A stretch of DNA of 33,613 bases, taken from positions 1-33,613 of the forward strand of contig JANQSP010000002.1 in assembly GCA_028283955.1 (NCBI GenBank). The letters are read 5' to 3'. Positions 421-26,203 of the stretch are shown in pieces. The notes beneath the pieces were generated by a model. It ran no database searches and was not told the DNA's origin. It saw only the letters and a program-made list of their open reading frames with translations. Origin of the DNA: Bdellovibrionales bacterium (GTDB taxonomy: Bacteria > Bdellovibrionota > Bdellovibrionia > Bdellovibrionales > UBA1609). Numbering within the stretch: position 1 is the first letter of the stretch; every line of letters begins with the position of its first letter. Both the position numbers and the translations under genes were made by a program.

Positions 421-1668
421 ATGAATGTACTCGTATTGGGAAAAGGGGGTAGAGAGCAGGCTTTAGTGCGAGCTTTGGCCCAATCCCCTAATGTACAACA
501 GGTGTTTGCCCTACCTGGAAGAGCCGGCTTTGAACCACAGGCTGTATGTTTGACAGATCAGGCTTTGGAAAAAGACTCCCTGAAAGAAATTATTAAAACA
601 AAAAATATTAAGCTGGTTGTTATTGGTCCGGAAAAAGAGTTAGTTGAAGGCTGGTCGGATTTTTTTCGCTCCTTAAACATTCCGGTTTTTGGGCCATCCC
701 GGGAAGCATCTCAACTGGAATCCAGCAAGCTTTTTGCCAAGCATTTTATGTCTTCTGTGGATATTCCCACATCCGGATTTAAAGAAGTCCATTCTGTTGA
801 AAGTGTTTTAAATGCCAGCCCCCGGTTTGGATTTCCGGTCGTATTGAAAGCGGATGGACTGGCAGCCGGAAAGGGAGTGTTCATCTGCCATAATAAAAAA
901 GAATTGGAAGAGTCTGCAAAACTCTTATTTGAAAAGAAAATTTTCGGCTCGGCCGGAGAAAAGGCTTTATTGGAAGTTTTTCAAAAAGGGGAAGAACTTT
1001 CTGTATTTGTACTGACTAACGGTAGTAATTATAAAATTCTACCTTTCGCCAGAGATTATAAAAAACTAAAAGACAACAATATAGGACCCAACACCGGAGG
1101 CATGGGAGCTTTTGCTCCTCATAATATTTCTGAAAACTTACAAAAAAATATTGAAACAACAGTTGTACAACCCAGTATTGAAGGGTTGAAAAAACACAAC
1201 TTATTTTATCATGGGGTTTTATACATTGGCCTTATGATTGTAGATCAAAAACCCTTTGTATTGGAGTACAATGTGCGATTTGGTGACCCTGAAGCACAAG
1301 TTCTACTCCCCTTATTGGAAGGAGATTGGGCAGAGGTTTTTTTATCCGTAGCCCAAGGTAAATTATCCGATTTGAGTTGGAAAAAAAACACTTTTGCCTC
1401 TTGTGTGATTTTAGCTGCGGAAGGTTATCCTTCAAAACCGGTAACCGGTGTACCTATTCAGGGAAATATCGGCTTTGAATCCTCTCACTTTTATTTTCTC
1501 CACGCAGGAACAAAGAAAACAAATACAGAATATGTTACAGATGGAGGCAGAGTATTAAACGCTATAGGAGTAGGAAATAGTAAAGAAGAATCCATTCAAC
1601 GTGCCTATAAACAAGCCACTCAGGTGAGTTGGCCAGGAATGCAAATGCGACCTGATATCGGTAATTAA
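421..1668 (+). CDS. purD: Phosphoribosylamine-glycine ligase (GAR synthetase)
   Basis: This enzyme joins glycine to 5-phosphoribosylamine using ATP, the second step of de novo purine synthesis, in the cytoplasm. The N-terminus MNVLVLGKGGREQAL is the PurD Rossmann-like start (GGREHAL in most homologues, with Gln here in place of His). The ATP-grasp region is clear: PVVLKADGLAAGKGV near residue 140, GGMGAFAP near 225, and EYNVRFGDPEAQ near 285. The C-terminal domain ends in GGRVLNAIGVG, typical of the family. At 415 residues it is close to the normal 420-430. A purine-rich AAGGAAG lies about 12 bases before the ATG and overlaps the upstream stop. No other pur gene is nearby, so purD is isolated here. 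Confidence 0.96.
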   Translation: MNVLVLGKGGREQALVRALAQSPNVQQVFALPGRAGFEPQAVCLTDQALEKDSLKEIIKTKNIKLVVIGPEKELVEGWSDFFRSLNIPVFGPSREASQLESSKLFAKHFMSSVDIPTSGFKEVHSVESVLNASPRFGFPVVLKADGLAAGKGVFICHNKKELEESAKLLFEKKIFGSAGEKALLEVFQKGEELSVFVLTNGSNYKILPFARDYKKLKDNNIGPNTGGMGAFAPHNISENLQKNIETTVVQPSIEGLKKHNLFYHGVLYIGLMIVDQKPFVLEYNVRFGDPEAQVLLPLLEGDWAEVFLSVAQGKLSDLSWKKNTFASCVILAAEGYPSKPVTGVPIQGNIGFESSHFYFLHAGTKKTNTEYVTDGGRVLNAIGVGNSKEESIQRAYKQATQVSWPGMQMRPDIGN

Positions 1669-1791
1669 AAATAATCCAACAATTTTCCCAAAAGATGTAA
1701 ACTTTACCCCTGATGAACGAAGTTTTAGAAATATTTTTTTTGTATATAAAAGTAAAATATTATAGAACACCAATATAAATAAGGAGGAAGA

Positions 1792-2154
1792 ATGTTCAAA
1801 ATAATAATCGCTTTAATATTTGCTTCATTTTCAACAGGAGTCTTAGCAACAGTGTGTTATGTTCACTTACCCTCAGAATGCACGGAACTGATAAGCTCAG
1901 ATATCTCCTTTCATATTGATGCCCAAAGTAAACAAACATTTTTAGATGTTTCATTGAGCTGTAAAGTCGATGAAAATGCACTAATAGTTGATAATACTAC
2001 ATTTGGTGAGATGTATCATAATTACAAAATATATAAGGTCAGTGTTCCGGTAAGCAGTCGCTCTGATGCTTATGTTATTCAATTTCCTAAGAATAAAAAA
2101 GAAGGAAGCCCTGAATTCATCTTTCTTCCTCGAGTCACATGTAACGACAAATAA
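1792..2154 (+). CDS. Small exported protein of unknown function
   Basis: This 120-residue protein starts with a good Sec signal peptide (MFKIIIALIFASFSTGVLA, likely cut after VLA). The mature part has four Cys (CYVHLPSEC near the start, SCKV in the middle, VTCND at the end), which could form two disulfides in the periplasm, and an alternating hydrophobic pattern that suggests beta strands. A strong ribosome-binding site, AAGGAGGAAG, lies just before the ATG. I recognise no family. It follows purD by about 120 bases and precedes a lipoprotein gene by 131 bases. Confidence 0.7.
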   Translation: MFKIIIALIFASFSTGVLATVCYVHLPSECTELISSDISFHIDAQSKQTFLDVSLSCKVDENALIVDNTTFGEMYHNYKIYKVSVPVSSRSDAYVIQFPKNKKEGSPEFIFLPRVTCNDK

Positions 2155-2285
2155 CCGGCAAGTTATTAGACTACACTTACACCAACAAGAAGCCATATAA
2201 AAGACTACTGACTTGAAGTCCAGAAAGTTTATATCTGTCTGTTCAGACCTCATTTCATACATTAAATTATAAAAAGAGACTAATC

Positions 2286-3554
2286 ATGAAAAAATATTTT
2301 CTTATTTTTTTGTTTTTACTTTTTTCCTCTTGTTCCTCCGACCCAAAACCGGATAAGCCAGACTATCCTGTTTCCGTTTCTATCCAATTCAATAAACCTC
2401 CCCTCCAAAAGCAGGAGTCAAACCCGGCTGTGACTCAACAAACAACAACAAACGCAGATGTAACTGTAAGTTCAGGTTTAGGCGTAGGTACAAATGCAGA
2501 AGTAAACACAGACACTGGTGTAGGTATAAACACAGATGAAGGTACAAATACAAATATAGGAGTAAAAGCAGATAAAGGTGTAGAAATAAGCACAGGTATA
2601 GGTGCAGGTACAAACACAGGTGCTGGTGTAGAGACAGATGCAAGCGCAAGTATAGATACCGGTGTAGAGAATCTGAAAGATACATCAGGTCAGTTTGGCT
2701 CTGCTACTACCATGCAACAACCGGAAGTAAACACAAATACCGATCCTTCAGGTCCAATAACAACGCCAATGCCAGTTGCAGACATAGATCCAGTTGCAGA
2801 CATAGATCCAGTCGCAGACGTAGATGCAGTCGCAGACACAGATGCAGTCGCAGACACAGATGCAGTTCAAAAAACCACTCAGGGATCTGCCGGCTTCAGT
2901 ATGACAGATAACCTCATACAGGAAGAAACATGTGAAGGTTTTTCAAAAACAGATTGGACGACTCAAGATCTTTCTATAAAGCAATCCATACAGCATTTTA
3001 CTACAGAGCAGATGCAAAACTTATTGAGTATCAACAGAGAATTTCCCTCTCCCAAGGACAAAGAAAATTCCATTAGATGTTTTGTCAATACAGCCTTTTC
3101 TTTAAATAAGATATTTAAAATAACAACAAATCATTGGCGGGAAAATATACAGGCCCCATTTCAAACTCCCCACAAAGAAACATTAATGGGATTTATCGAG
3201 CACTACTTTACTGCATGGGTTGGCAGTCTTCTTTCGCAAATAAAGTCTATTCCTTCCGATCGCATTCATTTTGTTGTGGAGGAGCCTCGTTTATTAAAAA
3301 ACAAAAAGTATCTCGTTCCTATAAATATTAATATTATGAACTACCATTCTGCTGAACTCATCTTGGTCGTTGACATGCAGTCTTTTCCCGAAGAAATATC
3401 TTTTCTGGATATATATGTTATGGAAGGAGTAAGCATATTAGTTTTATTAAAAGACCAAATGGATTGGCTTTTCAAAAAGAAAAGCGGAGATATGGATGCA
3501 GTTGCCTTTACTTTACAAAAAAAAATGGATGAGAGTTCTTTCGATTATTTATAA
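2286..3554 (+). CDS. Lipoprotein with repetitive linker and MlaC/Ttg2D-like C-terminal domain
   Basis: The lipobox LFSSC places the lipidated Cys at residue 16. Residues about 50-210 are low complexity: first Gly/Thr/Asn/Asp/Val-rich sequence coded by a degenerate six-base period, then five copies of a hexapeptide of the VADxDx type (18-bp units at 2775-2864). From about residue 210 the sequence is globular. It contains FVNTAFSLNKIFKITTNHWRE and a later LDIYVMEGVSILVLLKDQMDWLF, and their order and spacing resemble MlaC/Ttg2D: an aromatic-led helix with xxHWR, then 'VxDVxxEGVSLvxxyrxqfxxil' near the C-terminus. MlaC proteins are periplasmic phospholipid shuttles and normally soluble. A lipidated version on a long linker would be an anchored carrier. 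No mlaABDEF gene is in the window. The lipoprotein call is firm; the MlaC relation is a motif-level inference. Confidence 0.65.
   Translation: MKKYFLIFLFLLFSSCSSDPKPDKPDYPVSVSIQFNKPPLQKQESNPAVTQQTTTNADVTVSSGLGVGTNAEVNTDTGVGINTDEGTNTNIGVKADKGVEISTGIGAGTNTGAGVETDASASIDTGVENLKDTSGQFGSATTMQQPEVNTNTDPSGPITTPMPVADIDPVADIDPVADVDAVADTDAVADTDAVQKTTQGSAGFSMTDNLIQEETCEGFSKTDWTTQDLSIKQSIQHFTTEQMQNLLSINREFPSPKDKENSIRCFVNTAFSLNKIFKITTNHWRENIQAPFQTPHKETLMGFIEHYFTAWVGSLLSQIKSIPSDRIHFVVEEPRLLKNKKYLVPININIMNYHSAELILVVDMQSFPEEISFLDIYVMEGVSILVLLKDQMDWLFKKKSGDMDAVAFTLQKKMDESSFDYL
2450..2672 (+). repeat. Degenerate six-base-periodic coding repeat
   Basis: Nearly every six bases follow an AGGTRN/AAAYAC-like pattern (for example AGGTGT AGGTAT AAACAC AGATGA), giving alternating Gly/Thr/Asn/Asp and Val/Ile/Ala residues. 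It looks like an old expanded hexanucleotide tract that has drifted while staying in frame. The antisense strand is open here only because of this periodicity. Confidence 0.75.
2775..2864 (+). repeat. Five tandem 18-bp units coding VADxDx
   Basis: The units start at 2775, 2793, 2811, 2829 and 2847. Units 1 and 2 are identical and units 4 and 5 are identical, which points to recent slippage or unequal recombination. The period is a multiple of three, so copy-number changes keep the lipoprotein in frame and would change only linker length. Confidence 0.9.
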
Positions 3555-3598
3555 TCCCAACTGATGCCTCTTCCTGTAAATATTTTTATACGTATAAC

Positions 3599-4138
3599 TT
3601 AGTAGCTAAATACCTCTTTTCGTATGATTTGATTAACTTCAAATAAAACCAAACCACCAATATACGCACCAATAAACCAGAATATTGCCAGATTTAGATA
3701 AACATCCGCACCCAGGAGTAAAAATGCAGTGAGAGCAATTGAAGTAATAGAAAAGTAGTACAGAAATCGAGAGGCTCTAATTTTTCTAATTTCACCCGCT
3801 TTTAATATATATGCCGCCAGCAGGGCTCCACTTCCGACAAAGATAGAACCACAAATGACCATACATATACTCTCCCCAAACTTATGATGAAAATAGTGAA
3901 ATAGTTCATAGTTATTTGTAAGGCTTAGGTTAAATTGAGGGCAAAAAAGGAGAGTTAAGAAACCGATAAAGGCCTGGACAGCCAGAAGCTTTCCAAAAAC
4001 TATTGTATGACTCGGGTTTAAATCTTTTTTCACATAATCAAGTATTTTATTACTTAAATCACCCGGAGGATGTATGCCCTCCGAGTTCATGAAGTTTAAA
4101 AAGTCTTTATCAACTTTATCCCTATTAGGATTAATCAT
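3599..4138 (-). CDS. Putative membrane anti-sigma factor
   Basis: This 179-residue protein has a short charged cytoplasmic N-terminus (about 45 residues) followed by four to five hydrophobic segments (around residues 48-66, 87-110, 122-142 and 147-168). Its ATG overlaps the stop of the sigma-factor gene by four bases (ATGA), the usual arrangement for ECF sigma/anti-sigma pairs. Several anti-sigma factors have this shape: a small sigma-binding N-terminal domain and a multi-span membrane part. I see no clear zinc-binding HxxxCxxC motif, so it is not a standard ZAS-domain protein. The function comes mainly from position and topology. Confidence 0.55.
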   Translation of the reverse strand: MINPNRDKVDKDFLNFMNSEGIHPPGDLSNKILDYVKKDLNPSHTIVFGKLLAVQAFIGFLTLLFCPQFNLSLTNNYELFHYFHHKFGESICMVICGSIFVGSGALLAAYILKAGEIRKIRASRFLYYFSITSIALTAFLLLGADVYLNLAIFWFIGAYIGGLVLFEVNQIIRKEVFSY

Positions 4139-9460: not shown

Positions 9461-9534
9461 GGCGGTCGTAGCTCAGTTGGTAGAGCGCCAGGTTGTGGTC
9501 CTGGATGTCGCGGGTTCAAGCCCCGTCGATCGCC
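9461..9534 (+). tRNA. tRNA-His (anticodon GTG)
   Basis: Cloverleaf: an encoded G(-1) at 9461 opposite discriminator C at 9534, acceptor GCGGTCG/CGATCGC, D arm GCTCAGTTGGTAGAGC, anticodon stem CCAGG/CCTGG around TTGTGGT, and T arm with GGGTTCAAGCCC. The extra G(-1)-C73 pair is the identity mark of tRNA-His. CC then T follows, so CCA is not fully encoded. The last 18 bases plus four flanking ones recur at 9589-9610. Confidence 0.96.
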
Positions 9535-9588
9535 CCTTTATTCGAAAATAAACAATAAAAAAGACTGGATGCGAGTGAACGTAGTAGG

Positions 9589-9610
9589 CAAGCCCCGTCG
9601 ATCGCCCCTT
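9589..9610 (+). repeat. Copy of the tRNA-His 3' end
   Basis: Twenty-two bases identical to 9517-9538 (T loop to just past the discriminator), 72 bases downstream. It is preceded by a linker (about 9568-9588) that is nearly the same as the one in front of the tRNA-Leu tail copy at 25911-25931, although the two tails differ. Confidence 0.9.
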
Positions 9611-9684
9611 AGAATTAACTATCTAAAAAACTTGACAAATACATTTCAGGGATTACTGTAACTGAAACTATAAAGAGGATGAGT

Positions 9685-10752
9685 ATGTTAATACGGCCTT
9701 TTAGTTTCATTTTACTTCTCGGATTTTTTCAAAGCTTTGAATCTCAGGCAAGAAACAACATTTTAATGGTAGGCTCCTCTACAGTCTATCCTTTCGCGAG
9801 TACTGCGGCGGAAGAGTTTGGCCGGAGGACAAAGTTTCAGTCTCCTATAATTGAATCTCTTGGAACGGGAGGGGGATTTAAGATCTTCTGTAGTGGTGTA
9901 GGAATAAATAGACCTGATATAAATAATGCTTCCCGCCGGATCAAAGCCGGTGAAATCAGAAAATGCCAATCCAACGGTGTAAATGAAATTATAGAAATGA
10001 AAATAGGTTACGACGGAGTGGTAATGGTTCACTTTGTAAAATATTTTAAAGACACCCCTTTATCATTGAGTTTTAAAGACATTTTTCTTGCTTTAGCTAA
10101 AAACGTGCCCGTAGAGAATTCTGAAACACTTATTCCCAATCCTTATAAGACATGGAAAGATGTTAATCCCCGGTTACCCGATCACAAGATTCAAGTCTAC
10201 GGTCCTCCCCCCACCTCGGGAACCAGAGACACTTTTGTGGAAATTGCCATGGAAGGAGGGTGTAATACATTTCCATGGATAAAAAAACTGAAAGAACAAG
10301 ACAAGACAAAATATAAAGGCATTTGTCATGGCATAAGAGAGAGTGGGAGTTTTTTTGTTGTGGTTGGTGAAAATGACAATCTGACTATTCAAAAATTAAA
10401 AATACAGCCCCACTCCATAGGTATCATGGGCTTTGCTTTTTTAGATAATAATTTGGACATTATTAAAGGCATTTCCATCGAAGGGAAGGAACCTTCATTT
10501 GAAAACATCGCGGAAAACTCTTATCCCTTGTTTCGCCCCCTTTATTTATATGTTAAAAAGCATCATATAGGATCTGTACAGGGAATAGAAGATTTTATGA
10601 ACTTTTTTATTCAAGATCAAATTTCCGGAGAAGAAGGAGTTTTAGCCGACAAAGGATTGATTCCTTTAAGCGGAGAAGAAAGAGAGTCTGTTTCTCATGC
10701 CATTCAAAACCTTGAACCTATGGATTTTAATGAAATTTTAGATCAGAATTAG
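9685..10752 (+). CDS. PstS-like phosphate-binding protein (orphan)
   Basis: This periplasmic substrate-binding protein is related to the phosphate ABC transporter component PstS. The signal peptide ends near SQARN. The phosphate-site blocks are all visible: GSSTVYPFASTAAEEF, SLGTGGGFKIFCSG with RPDINNASRRIK, GYDGVVMV, and PPPTSGTRDTFVEIAM. At 355 residues it is close to normal. An ATG at 9679 lies only one base after GAGG; the ATG at 9685, with a six-base spacer, is the better start. No pstC, pstA, pstB or phoU follows, so it is an orphan that may feed a distant transporter or act as a phosphate sensor or scavenger. The gene is bracketed by copies of the tRNA-His 3' end. Confidence 0.87.
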   Translation: MLIRPFSFILLLGFFQSFESQARNNILMVGSSTVYPFASTAAEEFGRRTKFQSPIIESLGTGGGFKIFCSGVGINRPDINNASRRIKAGEIRKCQSNGVNEIIEMKIGYDGVVMVHFVKYFKDTPLSLSFKDIFLALAKNVPVENSETLIPNPYKTWKDVNPRLPDHKIQVYGPPPTSGTRDTFVEIAMEGGCNTFPWIKKLKEQDKTKYKGICHGIRESGSFFVVVGENDNLTIQKLKIQPHSIGIMGFAFLDNNLDIIKGISIEGKEPSFENIAENSYPLFRPLYLYVKKHHIGSVQGIEDFMNFFIQDQISGEEGVLADKGLIPLSGEERESVSHAIQNLEPMDFNEILDQN

Positions 10753-10803
10753 ATTCTGAACAGGACCTATGCAATGAACAAGCTGGAGGGAGGGAGCGAA
10801 GCA

Positions 10804-10825
10804 GGCGAGTCCCGTTAATCGCCCC
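10804..10825 (+). repeat. Diverged tRNA-His-like 3' tail
   Basis: This segment matches the tail copy at 9589-9610 and its flank at 18 of 22 bases, and ends TAATCGCCCCA, which reads as an acceptor strand, discriminator C and CCA of a tRNA-His-type gene. It is preceded by a GGAGCGAAGCAGGC-type linker related to the one at 9568-9588. With that copy it encloses the pstS-like gene. Confidence 0.6.
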
Positions 10826-10894
10826 ATTTTTTTGTTGAATTTTCCTGATAAATATAAAAAAATACCAAACCATAAAACACAGGAGAAAAACAAC

Positions 10895-25753: not shown

Positions 25754-25830
25754 TTTGAGAATCTTTTTTATAAAAAATTAAAATGACCAACCAGAAAATA
25801 GACAATATTTTGCTTCAACTCCGCTTCTTC

Positions 25831-25872
25831 AAAGTCGCAGACAACACAGGCCATCCGTCGCTTCAAGTCCCC
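25831..25872 (-). repeat. Block repeated downstream of tRNA-Leu, copy 2
   Basis: About 42 bases that match 26032-26074 with a few differences. On the plus strand it begins AAAGTCGCAGACAACACAGG and ends CTTCAAGTCCCC. The end is complementary to the CAAGTCCC of the tRNA tail copy on the other side of the terminator. Confidence 0.85.
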
Positions 25873-25878
25873 TTTTAT

Positions 25879-25911
25879 AAAAAGAAGTGGGTTCCGCCCA
25901 CCTCTTTTTTT
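25879..25911 (-). terminator. Hairpin terminator after the tRNA-Leu tail copy
   Basis: On the minus strand, GAGGTGGG pairs with CCCACTTC (one G-T pair) around a CGGAA loop, with an A tract before and a T tract after. It could work in both directions and stop readthrough from the tRNA or from the pilin-like genes' flank. Confidence 0.75.
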
Positions 25912-25931
25912 GGTGCCCGGCGAGGGACTTG
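25911..25931 (-). repeat. Copy of the tRNA-Leu 3' end, CCA included
   Basis: Twenty-one bases identical to 26119-26139. The bases upstream in tRNA orientation (25932-25952) match the linker in front of the tRNA-His tail copy (about 9568-9588) at 22 of 25 positions when the first bases of the tail are counted. Confidence 0.9.
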
Positions 25932-26031
25932 CCTACTTCATTCATTCGCATCACGCTCTTTCATTGCGTAGGCTCCCCTCTCTCATTCAGAAAATCGTCC
26001 AGGATTTTCTGCCCTGTATTCTCTGCTCCCT

Positions 26032-26074
26032 AAAGTCGCAGACAACACAGGTCATTCGTTCGCTTCAAGTCCCC
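26032..26074 (-). repeat. Block repeated downstream of tRNA-Leu, copy 1
   Basis: The partner of 25831-25872, lying between the first terminator and a 9-bp stem-loop (25988-26011, CAGAAAATC/GATTTTCTG). Confidence 0.85.
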
Positions 26075-26080
26075 TGGTCT

Positions 26081-26119
26081 AAAAAAAAAGGAACTGGACT
26101 TCGTCCACTTCCTTTTTTT
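26081..26119 (-). terminator. Hairpin terminator of tRNA-Leu
   Basis: On the minus strand, GGAAGTGGAC and GTCCAGTTCC form a stem with one mismatch around GAA. It is preceded by seven A and followed by nine T, and starts directly after the encoded CCA. Confidence 0.85.
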
Positions 26120-26203
26120 GGTGCCCGGCGAGGGACTTGAACCCCCACCTCAAAAGAGACATGATCCTAAGTCATGCGCGTCTACCAGTTCCGCCAGCCG
26201 GGC
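26119..26203 (-). tRNA. tRNA-Leu (anticodon TAG), CCA encoded
   Basis: Class II tRNA with a long variable arm. The acceptor is GCCCGGC/GCCGGGC, the anticodon stem CATGA/TCATG encloses CTTAGGA (anticodon TAG), the variable arm is GTCTCTTTTGAGGT-like, and the T arm reads GGGGTTCAAGTCCC. CCA is encoded, unlike in tRNA-Pro and tRNA-His in this window. Confidence 0.95.

Follow-up and report, generated by a model that had tools for sequence, protein, structure and literature searches.

The closest described counterpart of the sequences considered here is the 'RtT' repeat, a decades-old and poorly understood oddity of one E. coli tRNA operon, the RNA of which is reported to be released from the tRNA transcript by tRNA end-processing. 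The tyrT operon of E. coli K-12 contains four RtT copies (Rfam RF00391), arranged as tandem units behind the tRNA, each of which starts with the tRNA tail and comprises an inverted copy of the T-stem ('I', GGGGAAGGAT), a branched body and a direct copy of the tRNA tail ('T2', AATCCTTCCCCCACCACCA); a helix that closes the unit is predicted by folding. In E. coli, Salmonella and Klebsiella, further RtT copies follow tRNA-Pro, and in Providencia they follow tRNA-Lys, in each case with ends that match their own tRNA (loci L195, L196, L197, L198 and L199); the copies from these four organisms score 96-138 bits with RF00391; the corresponding records for the tRNA-Pro and tRNA-Lys copies describe them as 'processed from tyrT transcript' or leave them unannotated. 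A search of openly accessible texts for described families of tRNA-tail repeats recovered only a mention of RtT (PMC4986893), in which RtT-annotated RNAs of Pasteurellaceae adjoin tRNA-Asn and tRNA-Lys genes and were detected by Northern analysis in A. pleuropneumoniae.

Elements that share this plan are found in a stretch of 33,613 nucleotides ('the window') at the start of contig JANQSP010000002.1 of a Bdellovibrionales bacterium (assembly GCA_028283955.1). A preliminary description of the window had called attention to a single linker that is joined to the 3' ends of different tRNAs, with coordinates and letters that proved to be correct: linker GATGCGAGTGAACGTAGTAGGCAAG (9568-9592, forward strand) enters an exact copy of the tRNA-His tail (9589-9608), linker GATGCGAATGAATGAAGTAGGCAAG (25952-25928, reverse strand) enters an exact copy of the tRNA-Leu(TAG) tail (25931-25911), and the two are identical at 22 of 25 positions. 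What was not foreseen is that the linker is one strand of a hairpin within a covarying body of about 125 nucleotides, with an inverted tail copy at the opposite end; specifically, a larger, folded element of about 165 bases ends in a hairpin ('P4') whose 3' strand is the linker. We assign a probability of about three in four to the reading that the linker belongs to an RtT-like tRNA-tail repeat, composed of a tail, a trailer or terminator, I, a three-hairpin body and the next tail (T2), and propagated by a mechanism inferred below. The anatomy of the element, the covariation of its body, the agreement of its two ends with the local tRNA, the sharp left edge of T2 at nucleotide 56, the tandem copies, the decay to stubs and the spread through a phylum are all direct observations.

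Judging from the sequence, the window harbors one complete copy (behind tRNA-Leu), one stub (behind tRNA-His) and, beyond a gene for a phosphate-binding-protein-like product, a decayed relic of the His copy. In the complete copy, which is read on the reverse strand, tRNA-Leu (anticodon TAG; 26119-26203, identified by ARAGORN and Rfam) is followed by a terminator-like hairpin (AAAAAAAGGAAGTGGACGAAGTCCAGTTCCTTTTTTTTT, 26081-26118, recognized from the sequence and by terminator detection) and then by I, an inverted copy of the tRNA-Leu T-stem and T-loop (GGGGACTTGAAG, 26063-26074) that forms the 5' strand of a closing stem, P1. The structured body (25931-26059; hairpins P2, P3 and P4, with the linker as its 3' end) is recognized by covariation and by two covariance models, R1 (143.9 bits) and R2 (128.3 bits), and leads into T2, an exact 21-nucleotide tail copy from nucleotide 56 to CCA (25911-25931), with which I pairs (GGGGACTTG/CAAGTCCCT). 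A second, diverged copy of the terminator (25875-25910) begins a second tandem unit on the same strand, which is truncated and consists of a second I (GGGGACTTGAAG, 25861-25872) and a 5' fragment of the body (CCTGTGTTGTCTGCGACTTT), together occupying positions 25825-25872.

On the forward strand, tRNA-His (GTG; 9462-9536, ARAGORN and Rfam) is followed by a stub that retains only the 3' strand of P4, which is the linker (9568-9588, located by sequence and pattern search), and by an exact 20-nucleotide T2 that starts at nucleotide 56 (9589-9608). An open reading frame for a phosphate-binding-protein-like product (PBP_like_2, 9679-10752; Pfam PF12849, E 1.7e-36), which is not part of the element, separates this tail copy from the third site. 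The related linker that had been reported before a third tail at 10804 is indeed the decayed 3' part of the same body (the P4 region, 10766-10805; a weak match to R2 at 10693-10806, 16.5 bits, E 0.011), and it leads into a diverged, His-like tail copy ('T3', CGAGTCCCGTTAATCGCCCCA, 10806-10826) in which 15 of 19 letters agree. T3 resembles the tail found in G003, a related genome (CGAGTCCCGTCGATCGCCC), more closely than it does the tRNA now present at the site: it reads GAGTCCCG, as in G003, whereas AAGCCCCG is found in the tRNA-His of the window and also in T2. The tRNA and the tail copy next to it have changed in concert, leaving the relic unchanged.

The genome-wide search for the linker that the preliminary description had proposed (1.35 Mb, up to three mismatches) yielded three sites in the genome of the window, and none for a reversed control; the third site, on another contig (locus L003), also enters a tRNA tail, that of tRNA-Ser(GGA). 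With two mismatches allowed, the linker was also found in two related genomes, where the five copies that were fetched all lie behind a tRNA (tRNA-Met twice, tRNA-Gln, tRNA-Leu and tRNA-Gly) and a sixth lies at a contig end. Covariance model R1, built from seven bodies, matched 15 of the 47 genomes of the family and 22 of the 141 genomes of the order, and model R2, built from 53 matches, extended this to the phylum, where 81 of 369 genomes, belonging to 52 of 182 genera, were hit, with between 0 and 17 matches per genome. The phylum is assumed to be Bdellovibrionota, since a pattern scan of named genomes returned metagenome-assembled genomes that bear the labels Bdellovibrionales, Oligoflexia and Bacteriovoracaceae.

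The position of the element relative to tRNA genes follows a rule. A same-strand tRNA ends within 500 nucleotides upstream of 62 of 93 inspected matches, a tRNA lies just downstream of seven (termed 'type B'), and none of the 93 has only an opposite-strand tRNA nearby; the same-strand rule also holds in the phylum-wide search. Another 24 of these matches have no tRNA in the examined stretch; for five of them, a tRNA or tail copy was located at a distance of 2-18 kb. The hosts comprise 24 isoacceptors in 32 genomes, and tandem copies are found behind tRNA genes for His (G003), Pro (G029), Leu (G348), Gly (G359) and Met (G140 and G162). The genomes of one family, f8, have a single copy, at tRNA-Gln. 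With linker and locally matching tails distributed in this manner, the linker is therefore neither confined to its first sites nor common without a tRNA tail.

Both ends of the element follow the local tRNA. At the seven loci on which the architecture was first defined, the tRNA is succeeded on its own strand by a trailer (in many cases containing a terminator), I, the body (about 125 nucleotides) and T2. I is a reverse-complement copy of the T-stem and T-loop of the host tRNA, and T2 directly repeats the tRNA, starting at nucleotide 56 and ending at the 3' end or slightly past it. As the source of T2, the local tRNA surpasses all other tRNA kinds in 35 of the first 40 copies that have a tRNA, and it is the best source of I in 27 (failing in 13). 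A stem of at least seven base pairs between I and T2 can be formed in 59 of 82 copies, as compared to 16% of mismatched combinations. The left edge of T2 is sharp (nucleotide 56 in 35 of 49 copies, nucleotides 55-57 in 45 of 49), while the right edge falls within a few nucleotides of the tRNA end in most single copies and continues into trailer and terminator in tandem copies. T2 copies are mostly exact even though the bodies differ by about 30%, which implies that T2 is either constrained or converted by the tRNA. Several tRNA genes of G003 that carry elements (for example, at L053, L067 and L099) do not encode CCA, and their T2 also lacks CCA; thus, T2 has followed the loss.

The consensus fold consists of the three hairpins P2, P3 and P4 in a multiloop, closed by P1 into a four-way junction. 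Because P1 is formed by I paired with T2, the closing helix bears the sequence of the local tRNA. The folds of individual copies are much better than those of shuffled sequences (z scores of -5.7 and -4.4), although the minimum-energy fold of the window copy does not itself use P1, and some copies, for example the Ser copy in the genome of the window, have no P1. Changes on both sides are found in all 35 pairs of the body, with 94.4% of cells paired as compared to 68.3% after shuffling, in an alignment that was fitted to the model; when that alignment is slid by one column the register is lost and paired cells fall to about 40%, and an unfitted MAFFT alignment of the seven bodies gives 17 pairs with changes on both sides. 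This pattern argues that the structure of the body is under selection. Wobble cells in the body pairs are GU in 75 cases and AC in 21, which indicates that the strand with the sense of the tRNA is the one that folds. Folding in that sense would be compatible with an RNA, and also with single-stranded DNA.

The likeness to RtT lies in architecture: in both, the element stands behind a tRNA on the same strand, often in tandem, and the unit ends in a tRNA tail copy and is closed by a stem between the tail and the inverted tail. The body sequence and branching of RtT are different, T2 starts at about nucleotide 58 in enterobacterial RtT rather than at nucleotide 56, and RtT was seen here at three tRNA kinds (Tyr, Pro and Lys), whereas the new elements are much more widely distributed, at 24. 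The RF00391 model found no match at its gathering score (45 bits) in the window or at L003, L031-L035, L043, L063, L064, L086 and L090, which places the new family outside RF00391 despite the same plan. Conversely, the new covariance models did not match the RtT copies of tyrT, and R2 gave a single weak match at the proK RtT (10.1 bits, E 0.033). Membership in any known Rfam family was likewise rejected, there being none at gathering and only weak, unrelated matches with E values of up to 5. We refer to the elements as 'RtT-like tRNA-tail repeats', which appear to constitute a new, phylum-wide family built on the plan of RtT around another body.

By analogy with E. coli RtT, the folded form would act as an RNA, produced as a read-through product or trailer of tRNA transcripts, and would be cut out by tRNA end-processing, a step that is suggested by the imitation of a tRNA 3' end by T2. 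In 30 of 52 copies (7.4 expected from shuffles), tRNA and element are separated by a terminator-like hairpin, which speaks against routine co-transcription with the tRNA; any RNA would then need read-through or a promoter of its own, as yet hypothetical. The unit probably grows and shrinks by recombination between tail copies, and I may remain complementary to T2 through selection on P1, template switching at the neighbouring palindrome, or both. New tRNAs would be colonised rarely, perhaps with the universal T-loop sequence as the site of recombination. The element itself does not function as part of a tRNA.

Other explanations must account for the same combination of a common body and locally matched ends. 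The preliminary description had argued that the arrangement is not simple duplication, and this was borne out, since duplication of tRNA ends would yield neither the common body nor the inverted copy, and was rejected on those grounds; tandem duplication from within the tRNA tail does explain the direct tail copies at arrays, but not the other two features. The same description had further suggested an element that moves into, or captures, tRNA 3' ends. Its factual core, a common linker with tails that match the local tRNA, extends to all of the isoacceptors and genomes counted above, and an actively mobile structured element that inserts behind tRNA genes and copies both ends from its new host would agree with such a distribution. 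Such an element would also agree with the tRNA-Trp locus (where the genome of the window, G000, lacks a complete element, while an element stands behind the tRNA in G003 and the upstream form is present in G002) and with a tRNA-Met locus (where G003 has an element and G000 and G002 have none). This syntenic presence and absence shows that copies have been gained or lost, but does not provide the mechanism, and the bodies are only weakly closer within a genus than between genera: identity is 0.80 within genus g1 as against 0.69 between genera, which favors movement, but only 0.70 within G003, which does not. A recent burst of transposition was therefore rejected; copies do group by genome in a tree, yet pairwise identity is raised only in g1. 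With no mobilising enzyme identified, and no clean empty site with a defined junction obtained, movement or capture by an active element is unlikely. Reverse transcription primed by a tRNA, with I as the primer-binding site, was considered because I complements the tRNA 3' end, and was set aside.

Tail duplication at tRNA genes is the usual footprint of integration, and the repeats resemble the attachment-site duplications of integrative elements in that a direct repeat of the tRNA 3' part starts in the T-loop. They could accordingly be scars of phage or island integration, with the body as the conserved end of one integrative family, and some elements do mark the far end of islands that begin at a tRNA, extend over 2-18 kb and are bracketed by tail copies (L181, L184, L185, L188 and L192), with contents that include a serine recombinase and TraG-like protein at tRNA-Met, a trehalose-metabolism segment at tRNA-His and a restriction-modification segment. 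Unlike such duplications, however, the repeats are preceded by a conserved structured body and a paired inverted copy, usually with no island or integrase between; integration explains neither that inverted copy nor covariation in every pair of a 125-nucleotide body, the same body is found beside 24 isoacceptors without any island, and the ends of island and element differ where both are visible. At L188 (G162), 10.4 kb behind tRNA-Met that encode a TraG/TraD-like coupling protein and, ending at the tRNA, a large serine recombinase look like an integrative mobilisable element, the boundary of which lies at a different core (CTCCACCAT), followed by the displaced series of tail, terminator, element and tail. 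At L185, L188 and L192 alike, it looks as if an island entered the tRNA and pushed an existing series of this kind away. The P4 pattern matched nothing in viral contigs, which led to rejection of phage carriage; for RtT, one record matched in a phage collection, a Salmonella contig. The scar explanation is very unlikely. Alternatively, the folded form might be a single-stranded DNA recombination site, similar to attC of integrons, in which pairing of I with T2 would restore the tRNA tail as a double-stranded core and gene cassettes would be gathered behind tRNAs. The elements share with attC imperfect inverted ends, structure that is conserved more than sequence and occasional genes between sites, and the sharp block of identity from nucleotide 56 resembles attachment cores in tRNA T-loops. 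Successive tail copies enclose genes at L164, at L153 and in the window (the phosphate-binding-protein-like gene): at L164 (positions 1070-3958, G205), a HepT-like/MNT toxin-antitoxin pair and a beta-propeller protein stand between two exact 21-nucleotide tRNA-His tails, and at L153 a BrnA antitoxin and a C1 peptidase stand between tail copies of tRNA-Trp. Against this, a tRNA tail invariably accompanies the element, genes are absent from most copies, and neither an accompanying recombinase nor IntI or R/L boxes were identified in the units read. Among the subset of island and inter-element reading frames scanned with Pfam, a recombinase was found only at L188 (none at L181, L184, L185, L192 or L164), where the boundary lies at the other core, and L185 and L192 likewise look like later islands. 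The idea of tRNA-anchored cassette arrays, suggested by L164 and L153, is weakened by the boundaries at L185, L188 and L192, which lie outside the element and leave the displaced repeat intact; the toxin-antitoxin intervals keep it alive as a minority view, and a recombination site of this type is quite unlikely.

These data suggest that RtT is a single branch of a recurring plan by which structured elements borrow their two ends from an adjoining tRNA. A broader proposal, speculative and rather unlikely at present, is that structured elements of at least two phyla, with unrelated bodies, form a class in which the closing helix is rewritten to match the host tRNA; they would be RNAs or single-stranded DNAs that re-template their own ends and spread along the tRNA set of a genome. 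The elements account for stray tRNA tails that would otherwise be taken for integration scars, and covariation now specifies the exact base pairs for mutation. An old question becomes testable: do tRNA-tail repeats function, as RNAs, in tRNA metabolism, or are they selfish repeats that make use of the one sequence indispensable to every genome?

Several additional observations concern variant and partial copies. The type B form consists of P2 and P3 only, just upstream of an intact tRNA (L077, L079, L081, L082, L083, L084 and L047; genomes G002, G003 and G001); its bodies are always broken after GAGCGACTG or a similar sequence, and are preceded by a degenerate repeat of the 5' portion of that tRNA (Trp, Gly, Arg, Ser or Ile). 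The sequence ahead of the body may form base pairs with the region that flanks the true tRNA. At L164, each tRNA-His tail copy is preceded by an element, and the P2 loops of the two are mutually inverted (GGCCAAAGCC and GGCTTTGGCC). Elsewhere in the genome of the window, a decayed I and the start of a body lie behind tRNA-Gln (L025), and a remnant of the P3 hairpin lies just upstream of tRNA-Arg TCT (L004). At L003 (contig C12 of the same genome), the only Ser(GGA) gene found in the genome has an odd T-arm (GAGGCTTCGTTTTCCCTC) and is followed directly by a complete element, with a correct tRNA-Ser tail behind that element and a copy of the 5' half upstream of tRNA-Ser GGA.
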